From: Paeniglutamicibacter quisquiliarum
Lineage (GTDB): Bacteria; Actinomycetota; Actinomycetes; Actinomycetales; Micrococcaceae
Direction: 5' to 3'
DNA length: 39,893 bases
Assembly: GCF_019084045.1 (NCBI RefSeq)
Contig: NZ_JAHRED010000016.1
Location: 1-39,893 of the forward strand
Below the pieces are notes generated by a model. That model made no database searches, was not told the origin of the DNA, and worked only from the letters and a program-made list of their open reading frames with translations. Made by a program: the position numbers and the translations under genes. Shown here in pieces: positions 10,389 to 39,051 of this stretch; within the stretch, counting starts at the first letter, position 1; every line of letters begins with the position of its first letter.

Positions 10389-11241
10389 CCCGCTGGGCGT
10401 GCCAGCCCGCCAGCGGGCTGAGCCGCGCCCGCAGGTCCAGGAAGAGGGAACGCGCCTCGCCGCCCTTCCAGGATTCGGGCAGCGCCTCGGCCGGAAGGCC
10501 CGGATCCAGATAGGGCAGGGCGCGCCAATCGGTCACCATCCGAATGAAGTCTCCGAAGGCCGCCCGTGAGCCGGCTTCCGTCTGCTGGGCCGGATCGCCC
10601 CATCTGCCCAGCAACACGGAGTACTTGTCGATAAATTCCTGGTAGTGGGCTTCCAGGCTGTCCAGGTCCCACCACTGGGCCACCTTGGTTCGCAGTTCCT
10701 TCGGCCCGCCATGGTCGGCGTGGAAAAAGTCGACGAATTGGAGCAGGTCGTTGTCCTGCAGGTATTCCAGGGCCTCGTCGTAGACGTTCCCCGGGGCAAC
10801 ACACAGTCCGGCACCGACCACGCCGAACCCCATCCGGGCCAGCCCGCTGCGGATCTTGTGGCGCTGCCCACGCTGGGCCTCTGGAACCGAAAACGACACC
10901 AGCAGCCAGGGATCGGAGACCCGTGCCGGGTGAGGCGAGAAGATGCGTTCGTCGCCCACGCGCATGTGTTCCTCCAACGCGGGCGACAGGGCATACCCCG
11001 CCTCGCCCTTGACATGTTCGCTAATGAGCACTTCGCGTTTTTTCAACCGGGAAATCGACGACCGGACACTCGCCGGCTCGGCACCGAGATCCTGCAGCAA
11101 TTGCACGATGGCGGCCACGGCGATCGGAACACCGGCCGGACGCGCGTAGAGACCAAAGACCGTCAGGATATGACGATGGTGGGCAGCCTGCCCCAACTCC
11201 CCGGTCAGGCGACCGGCAATGATTTCTTCAATTGCACGCAT
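10312..11241 (-). CDS. PaaX-family transcriptional repressor
   Basis: Predicted 309-residue regulator. It has an N-terminal winged helix (about residues 20-90, including ASVRSSISRLKKREVL), a PaaX central domain (WLLVSFSVPEAQRGQRHKIR, then LARMGFGVVGAGLCVAP) and a PaaX C-terminal domain (YLDPGLPAEALPESW). PaaX proteins repress aromatic-acid pathways and are released by CoA thioesters. The gene is convergent with the esterase gene and overlaps its 3' end by 77 nt, so expression of one may interfere with the other. It is the only regulator in the cluster and therefore the best candidate for the inverted repeat at 6728-6760. The C-terminal tail is Ala/Gly-rich and may be poorly conserved. Confidence 0.87.
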   Translation of the reverse strand: MRAIEEIIAGRLTGELGQAAHHRHILTVFGLYARPAGVPIAVAAIVQLLQDLGAEPASVRSSISRLKKREVLISEHVKGEAGYALSPALEEHMRVGDERIFSPHPARVSDPWLLVSFSVPEAQRGQRHKIRSGLARMGFGVVGAGLCVAPGNVYDEALEYLQDNDLLQFVDFFHADHGGPKELRTKVAQWWDLDSLEAHYQEFIDKYSVLLGRWGDPAQQTEAGSRAAFGDFIRMVTDWRALPYLDPGLPAEALPESWKGGEARSLFLDLRARLSPLAGWHAQRVIHSAGAPAGQGRTRQAAGAAPATA

Positions 11242-11747: not shown

Positions 11748-12794
11748 ATGACCGAGCTCGAGCCTGACCTTCCCGGGGACTATTCCGACGCACTCACCAC
11801 CCTGAAAGACCTCGTACGGGAAGCACAGCACCGCGCGCAGCGCGTCGTGAACACCGCCATGATCGAGCTGTACTGGAACATTGGCCGCACCATCCTTCAG
11901 CGCCAGCATGGCCAGCCATGGGGGAGCAAGGTCCTTGACCGGATCGCCCACGACCTGCGCGCGGAGTTCCCTCATATGAAGGGATTCTCCCGGACCAATG
12001 TGTACAACATGCGTGCCTTCGCCGCGGCCTGGAACGGCGAGGAACCAATTGTCCAGACGCCGTCTGGACAATTGAGCTGGAGTCACAACGTCGCGCTCCT
12101 GAACAAGCTGGACGACCATGAACTGCGTCGCTGGTACGCCTCACGGGCCGTCCAGCATGGCTGGTCGGTGGCCGTCCTGGAGCACCAGATCCGCACGTCC
12201 CTGCACACCCGCACCGGTGCGGCCCCGAACAACCTCGAGGCACGGCTGCCGGGCGAAGGCACAGACCTGGCGCGGGAGGTCGCCAAGGACCCCCTGGTGC
12301 TGGACTTCCTGGGACTCACCGAGGAAGCCCAAGAACACGCCCTGGAGGAGGCCATGACGCTGCGCCTGTCTCAGACCCTGGCCGAATTCGGGCCGGGCTT
12401 TGCCTTCGTGGGGCGCCAATATCACCTGGATGTCGACGGGGACGACTTCTTCGTGGACCTCCTGCTGTACCACGTGCCTTCGGACCGCTACGTGGTGGTG
12501 GAGCTCAAGGCCGGCAAGTTCAAGCCCGAGCATCTGGGACAGCTGAACTTCTACGTCGCTGCCGTCGACGACATGCTCCGGTTGCCCCGGCAGGCACCGA
12601 CCGTCGGGATCCTGGTGTGCGGGTCCAAGAACGACCGCACCGTGCGCTATGCCCTGGACGGTTCCGCCCAGCCCCTGGCCGTGACGTCCTACACGTACGA
12701 GGCCCTGCCGGTCGATGAGAAAGCGACCCTTCCGTCCCCGGATGCCATCACCGCAGCACTCGAGCACGATCCGAAGATCCTGCCCGACGCGTGA
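11748..12794 (+). CDS. DUF1016 (YhcG-like) PD-(D/E)XK nuclease-domain protein
   Basis: Predicted 348-residue protein. The N-terminal DUF1016 helical domain begins with ALTTLKDLVREAQHRAQ and MIELYWNIGRTILQRQ. The C-terminal PD-(D/E)XK nuclease core shows the acidic residue in FFVDLLLYH and the ExK triad in VVELKAGKF, followed by GQLNFYVAAVD. Members occur beside restriction systems and in phage-defence settings and are presumed DNA nucleases. Here the gene stands alone between two copies of an 18-nt direct repeat, upstream of a type III restriction-modification locus. Residues about 99-109 (IVQTPSGQL) are encoded by a 29-nt palindrome. A decayed relative lies on the opposite strand at 13147-13360. 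Confidence 0.9.
   Translation: MTELEPDLPGDYSDALTTLKDLVREAQHRAQRVVNTAMIELYWNIGRTILQRQHGQPWGSKVLDRIAHDLRAEFPHMKGFSRTNVYNMRAFAAAWNGEEPIVQTPSGQLSWSHNVALLNKLDDHELRRWYASRAVQHGWSVAVLEHQIRTSLHTRTGAAPNNLEARLPGEGTDLAREVAKDPLVLDFLGLTEEAQEHALEEAMTLRLSQTLAEFGPGFAFVGRQYHLDVDGDDFFVDLLLYHVPSDRYVVVELKAGKFKPEHLGQLNFYVAAVDDMLRLPRQAPTVGILVCGSKNDRTVRYALDGSAQPLAVTSYTYEALPVDEKATLPSPDAITAALEHDPKILPDA
12046..12074. repeat. Near-perfect 29-nt palindrome inside the DUF1016 coding sequence
   Basis: Arms CAATTGTCCAGACG (12046-12059) and CGTCTGGACAATTG (12061-12074) are perfectly complementary around a single central base. It differs from the upstream palindrome at 11683-11711 at only two positions. Confidence 0.8.
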
Positions 12795-15322: not shown

Positions 15323-17917
15323 CTAGTACGCTCCACCCACCTCGCGGAACAGTTGCTCAATGGCTTCCTTGGATGTCGCGCCGGCCAACTTCTTCTCCAG
15401 GCCGTCCCCGGTTTGGCCGGAAAGTTGGATCGCCAGCAGGGCCCCCCCGGTGTCCTTGATGACAATCGAGGCCCGACGGAAGTCACCATCGTGTTCACGG
15501 ACGTACCGGGCCAGGGCCGTCCACTTCGGGGACGTGTCAGCCAATGAGTGGTTGTGCGGGTCCACCAAGTCGATGGCCACCCCGCCTTCGCCATTGTCGT
15601 GGAAGAACAGGAAGTCCGGGTAGAGGTTCTTGGACACTTCTGAGTCCAGGTAGTGCACGGACAGCGCGTGGCTGCCGCCCACGGGGTTCCTGTACCAGCC
15701 CAGCAGCGTGCCGGAGGCCTGCTCGGCTTCAAGGACGCTTTCCTCCCAGCCGGTGAAGGTTTCGGGGAACAGCTTGCTCTCGGGCAGCGCGTAGAGGTGC
15801 CCTGCATACAGCGGCAGGGCCTCGACCAGGCCGGTGTCCTTGTTCAGGATCTCCGTCTTTTGGGAGATGGTCTCGGGCATCCCGAGGGTGCTGACCAATG
15901 CCGATCCGATGGGGGCGAAGATGGTCTCGAATTCCTGGCGTTGCGTCGGTTTCAGGCGTGCCACCGAACCGGCTGTGTTCCGTCGCCAGCACTCCACCCG
16001 CGCGCCGCACTGGGCCTCCAAGGCTTCGCGGGCCTCGCCGGACCGCGCCAGGGCAACGGTCCGCACGACCACTTCATTCCATTCCAAGTCCCCGGCAATG
16101 ACCAAGGAGGTGCTGTACCAGGCCGCGGCGGCATCGGGGAGCCGTCGTTTGGCCTCCTCCAGGAGCTGGCGCAGGTTCTTCTGGCTGGTGGCAGCCGTAC
16201 GCGAGATGGTCCCGGTGTTGGCACCGCTGTGCTGGTAGAACGTGTCCGTTTGAAAGCTCACTTCGAGCATTGATTCGGCAACCTTGTCGATCGCCACACG
16301 GTGCTGGCTGAACACCGAAGCGAGGGTCTCCACGACCACGTCGCGAGATTCCTGGGTGTAGGACGATCCACCGGGGTGCTCAAATCCGGAGTTGTCCAAC
16401 AAGGTGCCCAGGCGCACCAGACGGTTCACGTTCGAGGTGAACCGGCGCACCGGCTTCTGCTCCCGTGTCAATCCGCCGATGGCGTCCCAGACCGCTGCGG
16501 GGACCTCCGGGTTTCGCGTCATGCGCTTGGGATTCAGCTGCACCGGGACCTCGATGTCCGCCGAATCCATGAAGGATTTCACGACCATCGCCACTTCCAC
16601 CTTGTTGAAGTGCGGCAGGTACAGGTCAACGGCGTTGAGGTCGTCGAATTCGGGTTCTTCGATGTTCTTGGCCAGCGGGTTGCGCACCATGCGGCCAATG
16701 AGCTGGGCGATCTGCGTGTGCTCCTGGGCGGTGCGCAGGGACACCATGACCTCGGCGCGGGGGCAGTCCCAGCCGGTGGTCAACGCTTGCTTGAAGATCA
16801 CCGCGCGCAGGTTCCCCGACTGCGAGATCGAGGTGGGGGCAATGTACTGGACCACCCTGGGCATCTGGACGCCGCTGAGCCAGGTGGTGGTTGTGATGGG
16901 TGCGTGATCGCCGAACGAGTGGGCCACGGAATCCGCGTCGTCAAAGGCGTCGGAGGCGTCGGTGAGGGTTTGGACGATTTCGCCGATCTTGGCGTCCGTC
17001 GTCATATCCGGGACCTGGATCGCCAGAAGCGGCACAGGGTAGGACGACGCACCGGTGGCACGGGCCCACTGCTGCCATTGCCGGTCGGAACGGTCCAGGT
17101 CGGCCACGGCCTGGCGAATCAGGGTGTCATCGCTGGGCTGGTCATCCACCGCGTAGCTGACGTTGATGCGCTCCTTGATAAGGCCCGAGGCCCGCACCTT
17201 CTGGACATCGGCCACGACCTGCACCAGGGAACGGCCGGAGGCGCCGCGCATGGCCTCCTCAAATTTCTTGGGCGTTGCCGACAACCCGATGACAATGGGG
17301 GCCGGCGGGTTCACGATTGTGCGGAACGTGTCGTTGCCTCCCGGCACCTCGATGGTGGCCCCGTCAAGGATGCGGCGCAGAATCGTTGGCCGGCTCCGGT
17401 CCGTGGCTCCCCGGTGGGCCTCGTCGACCAGGATGATGAAGCCGCTGCCGCGCTGCTTGATGGTGTTGCCGATGGTCTCCCATAGCGAATACCTGCGCCC
17501 GTCGCCGGTCTGGATGTGGCGCTTGGCGCCGGTTCCGAGCTTTTGGACGTTTAGGAAGTAGATGAGTCCGGGGCTGAATTCTGCCTGGTCGAAGTCTGAT
17601 TCAACGGTCCGGAGCATGTTCATGTTGATTCGGTCCGAAGAGGCCTGGATCTTCTTGCGGGACTGCTCGTTGAGCTCCGCGTCGTCCGTCAGCCACAGGA
17701 TCGTGGTTTCCGGGCTCGGATCGGCGTCCCCGATTCCGAAGAACAAGCCCTCCAGAACCGCCGAGGCAATCACGGTCTTCCCGGCACCGGTCGGGGCACT
17801 GATGCCGATCGCCGTCTTGCGCTCACTGTTGGAGCGGAGTCTTTGCTTGGCGATGCTGATTTCGTTGAGGGTTTCCCCTACAACGTCGGCCTGGTAGTCG
17901 GCAAGGGTGAATTTCAC
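15323..17917 (-). CDS. res: Type III restriction enzyme Res subunit (DEAD-box helicase-nuclease)
   Basis: Predicted 864-residue ATP-dependent restriction subunit that acts in complex with Mod. Helicase motifs are clear: Walker A APTGAGKT (residues 41-48), DEAH (165-168), SAT (213-215) and motif VI QLIGRMVR (405-412). A C-terminal nuclease-like region carries YPDFLFF followed by VAIDLVDPH; the usual ExK of the PD-(D/E)XK motif is not seen in its standard form. It starts with GTG at 17917, overlapping the mod stop by four bases (GTGA), so it is translationally coupled to mod. Because mod appears frameshifted, Res may lack its DNA-recognition partner. Confidence 0.9.
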   Translation of the reverse strand: MKFTLADYQADVVGETLNEISIAKQRLRSNSERKTAIGISAPTGAGKTVIASAVLEGLFFGIGDADPSPETTILWLTDDAELNEQSRKKIQASSDRINMNMLRTVESDFDQAEFSPGLIYFLNVQKLGTGAKRHIQTGDGRRYSLWETIGNTIKQRGSGFIILVDEAHRGATDRSRPTILRRILDGATIEVPGGNDTFRTIVNPPAPIVIGLSATPKKFEEAMRGASGRSLVQVVADVQKVRASGLIKERINVSYAVDDQPSDDTLIRQAVADLDRSDRQWQQWARATGASSYPVPLLAIQVPDMTTDAKIGEIVQTLTDASDAFDDADSVAHSFGDHAPITTTTWLSGVQMPRVVQYIAPTSISQSGNLRAVIFKQALTTGWDCPRAEVMVSLRTAQEHTQIAQLIGRMVRNPLAKNIEEPEFDDLNAVDLYLPHFNKVEVAMVVKSFMDSADIEVPVQLNPKRMTRNPEVPAAVWDAIGGLTREQKPVRRFTSNVNRLVRLGTLLDNSGFEHPGGSSYTQESRDVVVETLASVFSQHRVAIDKVAESMLEVSFQTDTFYQHSGANTGTISRTAATSQKNLRQLLEEAKRRLPDAAAAWYSTSLVIAGDLEWNEVVVRTVALARSGEAREALEAQCGARVECWRRNTAGSVARLKPTQRQEFETIFAPIGSALVSTLGMPETISQKTEILNKDTGLVEALPLYAGHLYALPESKLFPETFTGWEESVLEAEQASGTLLGWYRNPVGGSHALSVHYLDSEVSKNLYPDFLFFHDNGEGGVAIDLVDPHNHSLADTSPKWTALARYVREHDGDFRRASIVIKDTGGALLAIQLSGQTGDGLEKKLAGATSKEAIEQLFREVGGAY

Positions 17918-19904
17918 GAATCGCTCCGGTTGATCTGGAAGGCGTCAAGGTAGGAGCCGTAGATGGGCTGAACGGTGATCTCGTCCCCGAATGCCTCCCC
18001 GGCAAGGTCGCCCTGCTCGGGAGAATCGGTGATGATGAAAACGTGTTTGACCTGGTTGGGCTTGGTGGCCAACAGCTCGGCCAATTCGGCGGCTTTGCCC
18101 GCATTGAACAGCACAGCCATCGACGACTCTTCGTTCCATTCATAGTCCTGGGTGTCCTCGGTGCGCTGCACCACGGACCCAACCGCGCCAGACTTCAGCC
18201 AGAACAACGGCGCGAGGCTCTCGTACTCCAGAGCTGCGTGAACCCGGCTCTCTTCCAGGTAGGCGAGATCCAGGAACTCCACGTTGGCCGGGAGGCCGTC
18301 GGAGTATGCCGATCCGTCTTGGCGCACCCCGGTCACGACTGTTTCGATGCGCGGCTTGGTGACGTGGTGGAACACGCCCTTCGCTTCGTACTCGGCTGAG
18401 CCTGGCTGATGGCCGGCTTTTCGCAGCGCGGCGTCGTCCTTGGCCGAAAGCTCGTTGTTGGTGACCAAGATGCACTGACGTGTCCCCTGGTCCTCGGCGT
18501 TGAGCCGGATGACGGCCTCGGCGGTTGTTCCCGAGCCGCCGAAGAAGTCGAGCACGATCGAGTCCTTTGGCGCGATCAGGCGAATCCAACGCATCAGAAC
18601 TTCATGGTCTTTCGGGAACGGGAACCGTTTGTCGCGGAACACTGATTGAAGGTGTCGAGAAGAAGCGCGGCGATCTTTGTCGAATATCGACATAGCCACT
18701 TGAAAACCCTGCTCATCGAGATATTTTTTGAGTCGTGGAAGGCGGGTGTTATCCGTATCGAACCAGATATTGCCCTCTTCGATGAGGGCGTCCATAGACT
18801 CGCGGGAGTATGCCCACCCATTGGGATGGCGCATGGTGACTTCGCCAGTTACGGGGTGTAAGAGGTCATACTGGAGGTTCGGCCGCGGGCTGGGGCTTCT
18901 GAGATCGTTTGCGTAGAACACCCGCCCTTGGGCGTCAATGCGGTTGTAGTTGTAGTTCCCATCCCTTTTTGCTGGATGGTCTTTGGGAAGCGATGAGAAC
19001 CACTTCCGGAGCAATGCGGTAGCGGTATCCGGGCCTTGTCCCGATTCATTCCAAGCTTCGGTGCCGGCCGCAAGCACGGTCTCTGCTCCTGGTCGTTCTT
19101 CACGCCACCTGATCCCGGAGGCGGTGGTCGATGCCTCATCCTTGGAGTAGATCAGCATGTAATCGGCGCCGTTTGAAACGTAGCGTGAATCGTTCTTGCG
19201 ACCACCTTGCCAAACCACATCAGAGATAAAGTTGTTGGACCCAAAAATCTCGTCCATGAGCATCCGTAAACGGTGGTGCTCATCGTCCCCGATGGCCACG
19301 ATGATAACCCCGGTCGTCTTCAGGAGTTTCTTGGCCAGCGTCAGCCGGCGTTCCATGAAGCTCAGCCACTTCGAGTGCCTGAAGCTGTCCTGCTCCGCGA
19401 CGTAGTGGTCGTTGTACTGCCACGTCTTGTTGCCGGTGTTATACGGCGGTCGATGTAAATCAAGTCCACCGATTCAGGGTGCGTGTATCCAAGCATTTCG
19501 AGGGCGTGGAAGTTCTCTCCGTTGATCACCACATGGGCAGGATCTTCCGGGTTGCCGGTGCGTACGGAACCCACGGTCTTCAGACCGGGAAAGACCACTT
19601 CACCGAACTGCCGAGCAGCGGTGACGTTCGAGAGCTTCTCTTCGACAACGTTTCCGTGCTCGTCCGCGAGAGTCACAGAGTCGCCGCTGATGGCTCGGAC
19701 CTTGTGGAAGGTGCCGTCGGCTTCGCGGATGGCTGTGCGACCTCGGCGCACCGGCGCCTGGGGCATCCGGATGCCTTCGGGAGAGTGCCGTTCAAAGACG
19801 AGACCGAATTTCTTGGTGGTGCGCTCGAACTCGGCCTTCAACCTTGCTCGGAGCCCTTCGTCCGTCACCTCGTTCAAGTAGACCTCGAACATGCTTTTGG
19901 ACAT
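17914..19904 (-). pseudogene. mod: Type III DNA methyltransferase Mod, frameshifted in the catalytic DPPY motif
   Basis: Predicted beta-type N6-adenine methyltransferase that provides sequence recognition for the type III system. The N-terminal part (from 19904, MSKSMFEVYLNEVTDEG, with AGGAG upstream) runs to SVDLIYID. The frame then breaks at about 19448-19449, where DPPYN should follow: the sequence reads GACCGCCGTATAAC, one C short of GAC CCG CCG TAT AAC. The other frame continues with NTGNKTWQYNDHYV, MERRLTLAKKLL and FFGGSGTTAEAVIRLN (AdoMet motif), and ends at 17914. Restoring one base gives a 663-residue protein, normal for Mod. Either the gene is inactivated or a base was lost in sequencing. 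Confidence 0.85.
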
Positions 19905-22926: not shown

Positions 22927-23456
22927 ATGAACAATCCACCCCCAGCGGCTGGATGGTCGACTTTTCATTGTGACAGTTTGACTGAATACAAACGCGGAGC
23001 TGTCAACGGTGGGCTGATGGATTTATATTCGCATCAATGGATCCGATGATGGGATGCTGGCCCGCGTGTCTCCACGCCGAAATCGAAGTGCGGTGAACCG
23101 CCGAATTTCGGGGAAACCAAAATTCTCAACATTGTGTCTCGTGTCCTATTTCTCAAGGCAGGTGAAATCCAACCGTTGATAAGACCCGGGGGAGTGGGTT
23201 TAGCCGGTATTGGTTGTGCGCGGGTCGGTACCGTGGAACAGAATGCCTTGGTGCGGATGTTCGCGTGTGGCAATCCGACGATCGTGATCGACAGCTCCTC
23301 GTCCCGGGGCCCGCCACCGGCCGGCCAACAGGATCTGCCCGGTGGGGCCGCTACAGCCTGGCCACCCCCGGGCATCCCGAAGGGACCATCCCGCAAGCCA
23401 GCGACCTCGTGTGGACGAGTGCCCAACCCCTCCAAAAACCCCGGAAACCTGGGGAT

Positions 23457-23485
23457 TTGATTTTCTCTCGAAGCACTACTATATT
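23457..23485 (+). promoter_or_regulatory. Sigma70-like promoter upstream of the hairpin array
   Basis: TTGATT (23457-23462) and TATATT (23480-23485) are separated by exactly 17 nt. They match the -35 consensus at 4 of 6 and the -10 consensus at 5 of 6 positions. Transcription would start near 23492, some 85 nt before the first array hairpin. Confidence 0.55.
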
Positions 23486-23576
23486 TCTTGGCATGCGGGT
23501 GGGAAGAACGAATTACCCCCCCCAGGTTGAGGAAGCTGCAGTTGCTTCCTTTGGGGAAACCCGCACAGCAGTACCT

Positions 23577-24257
23577 GGCCGTCGGACAGCTTGAGACGGC
23601 CACCGCAGTAATGAAGTACCAGCAGTAAAGCAGTAGCAGCAGTACCCGGCCGTCGGACAGCTTGAGACGGCCACCGCAGTACAGCAGTAGCCGGAGGGCG
23701 TGGTCGTCGGACCGCTTGAGACGACCGCAGCAGTACAGCAGGACCAGCAACCCCGGCAGCAAAGCAGTACAGCAGTAAATGCAGTAAAGCAGTAGCCGGA
23801 CGGCGTGGTCGTCGGACCGCTTGAGACGGCCGCAGCAGTACAGCAGGACCAGCAACCCCGGCAGCAAAGCAGTAAAGCAGTAGCCGGAGCGCGTGGTCGT
23901 CGGACCGCTTGAGACGGCCGCAGCAGTACAGCAGGACCAGCAACCCCGGCACTACAGAAGTACCAGCAGTAAAGCAGTAGCCGGAGCGCGTGGTCGTCGG
24001 ACAGCTTGGGACGGCCGCAGCAGTACAGCAGGACCAGCAACCCCGGCACTACAGAAGTACCAGCAGTACAGCAGTACAGCAGTACCCGGCCGTCGGACAG
24101 CTTGAGACGGTCGCAGCAAAACCGGCAACACCAGCAGTAAATCAGTAAAGCAGTACCCGGAGGGAGTGGTCGCCGGACAGCTTGAGACGACCACAGCAGT
24201 ACCAGCAACACCGGGAAGTACCTGCAGTACCGGGCCGTAGGACAGCTTGAGACGGCC
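23577..24257 (+). repeat. Array of nine 25-nt hairpin repeats with CAGCAGTA-type spacers
   Basis: Units begin at 23577, 23648, 23702, 23807, 23895, 23992, 24088, 24168 and 24233, each 25 nt. Each has a 7-nt left arm (GGCCGTC, GGTCGTC or a close variant), an 11-nt loop (GGACAGCTTGA or GGACCGCTTGA; GGACAGCTTGG in unit 6) and a 7-nt right arm (GACGGCC, GACGACC or GACGGTC). Spacers of 29-80 nt are built from CAGCAGTA and CAGTAAAG words; after units 3-6 they share the word AGCAGGACCAGCAACCCCGG. Unit-to-unit spacing runs from 54 to 105 nt. There is no fixed-length unique spacer, so this is not a CRISPR array. Confidence 0.9.
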
Positions 24258-24281
24258 ACAGCAGTAAAGCAACACCCCATT

Positions 24282-24323
24282 GGGCGGGCTGGTGATGAAT
24301 CCGTTTTCATCACCAGCCCGCCC
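24282..24323 (+). terminator. Strong terminator-like hairpin after the array
   Basis: A perfect 17-bp inverted repeat (24282-24298 with 24307-24323) has an 8-nt AT-rich loop and is followed by CTTTCC. It starts 25 nt after the last array hairpin. Confidence 0.7.
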
Positions 24324-24607
24324 CTTTCCGTTCTTGCCAAAGTTGGCGTCGCTCACCAGTTGCGCGCCACCGGGGCAGGAACCGGAGCTGACACTATCCA
24401 AGAACCCACCCCTTGCCTCCTCGGGTGTCCCTCTGCCGCTCGTGAGTGCTTCCCCATAGGGTTCGGGTTTGGGTAGCAATGGCGTGAAATGTGGATTTCG
24501 GCGCTCGTGAAGGTTTTCTGTTGTCGTTAGTTGCCGATGACGAGGATGCTTGCAGCCGCTTCGATGACATCGTCGATGATGGTTTAGAGCTGGTTTAGAG
24601 CTGGTTG

Positions 24608-38016: not shown

Positions 38017-38754
38017 TTACCGTGGATTCTCGAAATGCGTGGTCGCGCCCTCCGGGTCCTTCTGCTTGACCATGGCCTCCGCGATGTCGCGAAGCTTGAT
38101 GTTGCGACTGGAGGAGGCCGATTTGAGAATCTTCACTGCTTCGTCCTGGCTGCAGTTGTTCTGGCCCATGATCATTCCCACGGCCAGGTCGATGGTGGTG
38201 CGGGACTTCATGGCCTCCAAGGCATCGGCGGCGGTCTCTTGGTGGCGTGCCAGCCTCAGGGCTATCGCGAAGGCTTGGGAAGCCTGGGCGGCATAGCCCT
38301 GGGCCAGGTGCATTTTCTGGACCGTGAAACCGTGGGCCTCGGTGGAATAGAGGTTCAGTGCCGCATGGTCGCCTTGTTCCAGGTGGAAAGGGACGGCCAG
38401 GACCGAATGTATTCCCTCGGCCAAGAGGATCCGCGCATACTCGGGCCATTTGGTCTCGGCTTCCAGGTCCGGGACATGGACGAGGGCTTGGGTCCGTGCG
38501 GCGCACAGGCAGGGACCGTCCTTGAACCGGTATTGGAGTTCGTCAAGTTTTTGCGCCTCGAGGCTGCTGCTGGCCACGGTGCCGGCGCGCCGGTGTCGCA
38601 GCAAAGTGATGCCGCACATTACCTCCTCCCCGTGCTCGGATAATTCATGGACGGCCAGGCGGGTCAGGGCGTTGAGGAAGCTTTCGATTTCACTGGATCT
38701 CAGGATCAGCCCGTGGAGGTAGTCGCCGACGGTGACCTGTGCTTCATCGTTCAC
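38017..38754 (-). CDS. GAF-ANTAR domain RNA-binding antiterminator-type regulator
   Basis: Predicted 245-residue signalling protein. The GAF domain (about residues 20-150) includes CGITLLRHRRAGTVASSSLE, DGPCLCAARTQALVHV and HSVLAVPFHLEQG. The C-terminal ANTAR domain (about residues 170-235) includes RTTIDLAVGMIMGQNNCSQD. ANTAR domains bind paired RNA hairpins and prevent termination. The start is GTG at 38754 with AGGAG 7 nt upstream. This domain order is common in actinobacteria, where GAF senses a small ligand or redox state. No ANTAR target hairpin pair was recognised nearby. Confidence 0.88.
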   Translation of the reverse strand: MNDEAQVTVGDYLHGLILRSSEIESFLNALTRLAVHELSEHGEEVMCGITLLRHRRAGTVASSSLEAQKLDELQYRFKDGPCLCAARTQALVHVPDLEAETKWPEYARILLAEGIHSVLAVPFHLEQGDHAALNLYSTEAHGFTVQKMHLAQGYAAQASQAFAIALRLARHQETAADALEAMKSRTTIDLAVGMIMGQNNCSQDEAVKILKSASSSRNIKLRDIAEAMVKQKDPEGATTHFENPR

Positions 38755-39051
38755 GGCATGGCTCCTGTTGACGGGCCTGGGTCCTTCATCGCGCCGGACC
38801 CGGCAACGCCGACCTTGGGTGTGTCGCGCGACCGGTGCCCCAGGAAGGCCGTCTGGCAGGACCGGGGGGGCTGTGCGCTCAACTCCCGCCTTTGTTCCCA
38901 AGTTACGCGGAAGCCCGATAAATAGATAGGCAAAGAGATGTATGCGCTCCGCAGGTAACCGGCGTGCAGCGACCGGGCACTCCCGCGCTTGTTCGGGGGC
39001 CGGCCAAAGGCCATCCTCTTGGACGTGCTCCTTAGGTGTCTGCGGGGGAGT

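Follow-up and report, generated by a model that had tools for sequence, protein, structure and literature searches.

The window analysed here, a 39,893-nucleotide stretch of DNA from Paeniglutamicibacter quisquiliarum, carries a run of nine 25-nt hairpins separated by linkers of 29-80 nt, which raises the question of what kind of element this array is and what it might do in the cell. A repeat search of the window returned a single family of nine copies (D2), with start spacings of 71, 54, 105, 88, 97, 96, 80 and 65 nt, and together with the coordinates (Table 1) this confirmed the units, position and linker range of the original prediction. The shared loop core also held, GGAC(A/C)GCTTG(A/G) forming the loop of 9/9 units, whereas the 7-bp stem ascribed to all of them is complete in seven (G-T pairs allowed), with one mismatched pair in each of units 8 and 9. 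Since the CGGACNGCTTGAGAC pattern has seven matches in the array and none elsewhere in the 4,439,639-base genome, with none for a control pattern, the array is beyond chance. The covariance model of the unit (R1, built from 48 units) recovers all nine window units at 61-69 bits, these units being part of its training set.

The statement that the array is neither a CRISPR array nor a simple tandem repeat was upheld, as its linkers are made of the same shared words and are not unique spacers of near-constant length. Among the Pfam matches of 28 open reading frames in the window there were no Cas families. With the exception of 65 nt, the start spacings in the window lie near 54 nt plus multiples of about 8.5 nt; these steps of about 8-9 nt equal the length of a CAGCAGTA-like word, as if the linkers lengthen by whole words of this kind.

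A predicted RNA gene from promoter to terminator

The array appears to make up the body of a noncoding RNA gene that stands alone, measures about 840 nt and runs from promoter to terminator (Table 1), a conclusion that we consider well supported by sequence comparison. The original prediction stopped at the outer hairpins and missed this gene, which extends past them on either side to include promoter, leader and terminator. TTGA-17-TATATT was detected by script in 27 of the 29 loci having upstream sequence and is readable by eye in the remaining two, and from its position transcription would start near 23490. The leader is predicted to form helices P1 (TGCGGG/CCCGCA, 23494-23499 with 23560-23565), P2 (CCCC/GGGG) and P3 (GGAAGC/GCTTCC, 23531-23536 with 23544-23549). 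Leaders fall into two groups with the same helices in different sequence (UGCGGG/CCCGCA in Paeniglutamicibacter, AACGG/CCGUU in the Arthrobacter-type loci), and the leaders of other genera have UUCCCC/GGGGAA, besides AACGG/CCGUU, in place of the helices of the window. A comparable GGGCGGGC... hairpin stands at the 3' end of every inspected array that is not cut off, and both promoter and terminator are kept across loci while the flanking genes change. Homology between copies begins about 232-243 nt 5' of the first unit in most Paeniglutamicibacter pairs, and downstream it reaches about +225 from the last unit in several pairs and only about +98 to +120 in others. A coding repeat was rejected, as the unit spacings are not multiples of three and so leave no conserved reading frame, and the open reading frames across the arrays are antisense chance frames. 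The promoter, leader and terminator, along with the lack of a fitting reading frame, thus point to one plus-strand noncoding transcript.

Table 1. Features of the array gene and its surroundings (window positions)
Feature	Position	Strand	Basis or remark
Conserved upstream block with terminator-like hairpin CCCCGGAAACCTGGGG (23439-23454)	23348..23456	+	homology between copies
Sigma-70-type promoter, TTGATT-17-TATATT	23457..23485	+	about 90 nt 5' of first hairpin
5' leader, helices P1-P3	23490..23565	+	consensus fold of 9 leaders
Array of nine type-A hairpins, stem GGYCGUC/GACGRCC, loop GGACMGCUUGR	23577..24257	+	repeat search, fold, model R1
Unit starts	23577, 23648, 23702, 23807, 23895, 23992, 24088, 24168, 24233		
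Linkers, in order	46, 29, 80, 63, 72, 71, 55, 40 nt		
Linker arm (example), CCGGC...GCCGG with CAGCAGTA-type words inside	23753..23799	+	linker folds; same words in other copies
Terminator hairpin, 18 bp, then CTTTCCGTTC (T-rich tail)	24282..24323	+	24 nt 3' of last unit; inverted-repeat search (I1)
Conserved downstream block	24324..24462	+	homology between copies
Serine recombinase, PF00239	26051-26635		

For the predicted 843-nt transcript the folding energy is -330.4 kcal/mol, whereas 20 shuffles average -290.3 (z -4.7); the mean unpaired probability is 0.76 in the loops, 0.54 in the linkers and 0.14 in the stems. The predicted fold does not leave the linkers wholly single-stranded, and in some of them a CCGGC...GCCGG arm is folded around CAGCAGTA words. 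Since the stems are interchangeable, not every hairpin stays local in the global fold.

Selection and variation of the hairpins

Conservation is highest where the RNA would be unpaired, the identity over 109 distinct units being 98% in the loop core, 86% in the stems and 71% and 79% in the flanks. In an alignment fitted to the model and comprising the 150 best of 167 matches, G·U occurs 61 times and A·C 7 times in the seven inner stem pairs (19 and 7 times with each distinct stem counted once), and this excess of G·U points to a plus-strand RNA. A structure-blind alignment gave UA 23 times, UG 13 and CG 12 at pair 14-34, with no mismatch. One of the alignments was made without L165 (near-identical to L164) and L162 (same record as L215). 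In a covariation test against 500 shuffles, the cells paired (91.2%), the cells changed on both sides and the covariation score exceeded all shuffles, while pairs with double changes (251/500) and further pair types (500/500) did not. Most units are predicted to have an 11-nt loop, and the common forms one of 10-11 nt with weak inner pairs; the short-loop units are predicted to fold extra inner pairs and a CAGC tetraloop.

Arrays of Paeniglutamicibacter have type-A hairpins only. All Arthrobacter-type arrays surveyed except L114 also contain a second hairpin, type B (CCGUC AAGCAGUAGGA GACGG), which has its stem and loop length in common with type A and was missing from the earlier description. 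The arrays surveyed have 4-10 type-A units each, a count that excludes the trailing A at 41-42 nt, which is a fuzzy match inside the terminator. Whether copy number varies between relatives had been left as a question, and it does: the orthologous loci L209b and L211, on two complete chromosomes and 89% identical over 1.5 kb, hold 9 A + 4 B and 10 A + 6 B hairpins, respectively. The pitch is near-regular at 45-47 nt in many Arthrobacter-type arrays (L209b, L210, L220, L221 and others), as against the word-stepped spacing of the window.

Distribution and novelty

A DNA search of 99 relatives found matches in eight, the source genome counted. With R1, 22 of the 395 sampled Micrococcaceae genomes were matched, and the 18 with at least two unit matches, in fact three or more each (source genome included), are referred to as carriers, each holding up to three arrays. 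Four genomes with one weak R1 match each (G047, G239, G348 and G419) were not counted, and G029 had a weak DNA match and none with R1. Among 396 genomes sampled across the order, for which the number from outside the family is not listed, R1 matched only the source genome and G154, both Micrococcaceae. Two of 72,556 plasmid records were matched, both of them Arthrobacter plasmids with nothing annotated under the match, and arrays also lie on chromosome-size contigs. A phage-borne element was rejected, with no match in 50,697 phage records and with 15 viral contigs that held one exact pattern match, none having two or more units. A pattern scan of genome contigs gave at least 118 stretches among the matches listed, mostly single chance matches. 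Fourteen of the 140 loci examined (L125 duplicates L169) had at least two unit-like matches on one strand, namely seven overlapping stretches of our own window, six Arthrobacter or Paeniglutamicibacter loci (L048, L076, L078, L100, L113 and L114) and L021 of Pseudomonas, which was rejected as an array, its two matches being 2.8 kb apart.

Rfam 15 gave no match at or above the gathering score in the window and six array loci, and a lax search of 23300-24500 gave four matches, all far below threshold. A literature search of mostly openly available papers found no description of a hairpin-array RNA, which does not prove its absence from print; in the main text of two RNA-discovery papers the names Arthrobacter and Micrococcaceae do not occur. 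The view that no described element has this pattern therefore stands, and the search with a covariance model has added that arrays recur, conserved, in related genomes; neither of the outcomes named beforehand as refuting has come about. We conclude that this is an apparently undescribed RNA-gene family, present on chromosomes and plasmids of some soil and cold-climate Micrococcaceae. To our knowledge, bacteria have rarely been found to make long structured RNAs that lack a known protein partner, and Actinobacteria have yielded few of them.

Neighbouring genes and mobility

No protein family is conserved beside the arrays within 10 kb in 33 array loci, some of which are cut by contig ends. The serine recombinase near the window array had been pointed out, but a linked partner it does not seem to be: a resolvase-family reading frame, though the commonest neighbour, is found within 10 kb in only 10/33 loci, at variable distance and on either strand. 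A mobile element with its own transposase was rejected as well, there being no conserved transposase or recombinase gene in the unit. An umuD/Y-family polymerase pair lies about 1.4 kb downstream of the array, convergent with it, in L161, L213, L215 and L217. The window also holds type III restriction-modification-like genes at 15323-19904, with methyltransferase matches in the successive reading frames 17914-19356 and 19362-19904, and a YhcG/DUF1016 PDDEXK nuclease at 11748-12794 that matches the PADLOC candidate family PDC-S02.

One genome has three cassettes at unrelated sites, and the copies of one Arthrobacter-type group are homologous between about -625 and about +222. The start of the cassette adjoins a CCCGCA...GGAACGCTTTGCGGGA hairpin in L209, L210, L211, L216, L222 and L223, and in L221 a motif resembling this hairpin also lies 3' of the right end. 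A relative (left flank L225) keeps the left-flank hairpin without the cassette; when the two flanks were joined and used to look for a clean empty site, each was matched only by itself. The end motif was rejected as an abundant REP family, with 0-13 copies per genome in eight genomes when one mismatch was allowed. No transposase, terminal inverted repeat or target duplication was established. In G012, 4.4 kb around the array is 99% identical between a chromosome-size contig and one of 163 kb, so arrays also move inside larger segments. At L211 a lone decayed leader with one unit (10527-10570) lies just 3' of the full array, as if it were an old second copy, and at L172 (9722-9881) an IS3-like transposase gene replaces the promoter and leader region of the array.

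Possible function and alternatives

Many identical exposed loops, an invariant loop sequence, a variable number of units, a strong promoter and no antisense excess are best accommodated by a multivalent RNA that titrates an RNA-binding factor, a sponge, and we put this reading forward tentatively, its likelihood falling a little short of even. RNA polymerase would start near 23490 and stop at the hairpin of 24282-24323, and the RNA would fold into a leader domain followed by a string of nine near-identical hairpins on linkers. Presenting the same 10-11-nt loop on each hairpin, it could serve as a multivalent ligand for many copies of one RNA-binding factor and draw this factor away from its other targets, while tandem duplication would add or remove units and so tune its capacity, and the gene would move between replicons. 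Complements of the 11-nt loop outside the arrays number 13 in 11 carriers and 13 in 8 non-carriers; without an excess nothing points to an exact-complement target, which leaves a protein as the likelier partner. A single comparable hairpin outside the arrays was found in none of six genomes (best non-array match E 0.25, 18.2 bits), so that natural competing targets are not seen and a simple mimic of mRNA sites is weakened.

Sponging of this kind has precedent in CsrB, CsrC, RsmY and RsmZ, which the available text of PMC5027483 describes as untranslated RNAs that bind several CsrA dimers and sequester them. Like the array RNA, these have repeated hairpins in a promoter-to-terminator gene. However, the array RNA has no Rfam match, and a CsrA search gave matches in 11/18 carriers and none in 7/18, including G005 (88% complete) and G328 (90%), while 6/9 non-carriers passed the cut-off, and CsrA is therefore unlikely as the general partner. 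Moreover, the first G of the loop is missing from 26 of the 109 distinct units, the other 83 having G or A at that position, and the loops of these 26 hold no GGA, unlike the CsrB/RsmZ type. An ANTAR-domain antiterminator as the sponged factor would be a special case, reminiscent of the dual-hairpin ANTAR targets, which are likewise small tandem hairpins with conserved loop residues. If G·U closed the loop, the inner hexamer would be ACAGCU, with A at position 1 and G at position 4 in 108/109 units each, the determinants of ANTAR targets as given in the available text of PMC3369931; the inner pairs of the short-loop units and a GAF-ANTAR protein encoded at window 38017-38901 would agree. Yet this rule is matched only under that alternative pairing, B loops miss it, other loop positions are conserved too, and with mostly 11-nt loops and weak inner pairs in the common form the RNA differs from the hexanucleotide loops and close spacing (5-12 nt in the eut targets) of the same account, the hairpins here being 29-80 nt apart. 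The array was thus not assigned to the ANTAR target class, and we hold an ANTAR partner to be highly improbable.

Other readings give the hairpins a different role. A self-assembling or scaffolding RNA, in which hairpins and leader would assemble into a large particle, of RNA or RNP, of the ROOL, GOLLD or OLE kind, is unlikely. These are also long stand-alone structured bacterial RNAs, and the available text of PMC12286853 has them forming homo-oligomers via kissing loops and A-minor contacts; a stably folded RNA (z -4.7) of fixed architecture, with its 45-47-nt pitch in many Arthrobacter-type arrays, would suit such a particle, and by eye the A loop has a self-complementary AGCU and the B-loop AAGC could pair with the A-loop GCUU. 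The complementarity is only 4 bp, however, B hairpins are absent from Paeniglutamicibacter arrays, and the free type-A number is unlike a defined particle, just as a variable-length array lacking an Rfam match is unlike the fixed fold of ROOL, GOLLD and OLE. STAXI too is a structured motif in tandem, but according to the part of PMC2864571 available it is mainly a pseudoknot, usually repeated three times near genes for DNA-handling proteins, where the array RNA has simple hairpins, 4-10 type-A units and no fixed neighbours. Loops that pair by short seeds with mRNAs or another small RNA would explain why a ten-nt core is nearly invariant and displayed many times, but 11-nt complements are not in excess outside the arrays, and we hold such a regulator to be rather improbable. 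An orphan type III antitoxin RNA deserves almost no credence: ToxI and CptI do combine repeated RNA units in one transcript, and such antitoxins consist of multiple RNA repeats (PMC8860590, available text), but theirs is a fixed-length repeat and not hairpins on variable linkers. None of the 33 loci has a conserved adjoining toxin gene, ToxN-type nucleases included, and type III toxin-antitoxin was rejected; a genome-wide ToxN search gave 0 in 18 carriers, and likewise 0 in its 14 controls.

It also has to be asked whether the array serves the cell as RNA at all. A mobile repeat that is selfish or degenerate, spreading as a cassette whose sequence is kept by recent copying and having no cellular role, could account for several copies per genome with unrelated flanks, for the ends near -625 and +222, for the left flank found without the element beside its hairpin site, and for decayed-looking copies such as those at L211 and L172. 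Terminal inverted repeats and target duplication were not established, however, and selection is needed to explain why linkers and stems change from group to group but the promoter, leader helices, loop and terminator are retained; we therefore judge a purely selfish origin to be an improbable explanation. Each unit is a DNA dyad as well, and two arrays are on sequenced plasmids, as would befit a dyad array that binds a transcription factor or a replication or partition protein. But duplex DNA gives no reason for G·U to outnumber A·C, the unpaired centre is better conserved than the dyad arms, a strong promoter and terminator bracket the array, and arrays are also found on chromosome-size contigs, making a DNA-level element very unlikely.

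Returning to the sponge, the RNA family appears to be new, whereas its mode of action may yet prove to be of a known kind. With slightly more reserve than for titration as such, we suggest that it could represent a new regulatory RNA class of Micrococcaceae, a modular hairpin array in a mobile cassette whose units are tuned by duplication and which would titrate or scaffold an RNA-binding factor that belongs to the host or to competing elements. Compact and modular, the RNA occurs in named strains, and the effect of valency could readily be tested on its natural variants, which have 4 to 10 type-A hairpins. We know of few RNA-binding regulators in this bacterial group, and the partner, if found, would reveal one.
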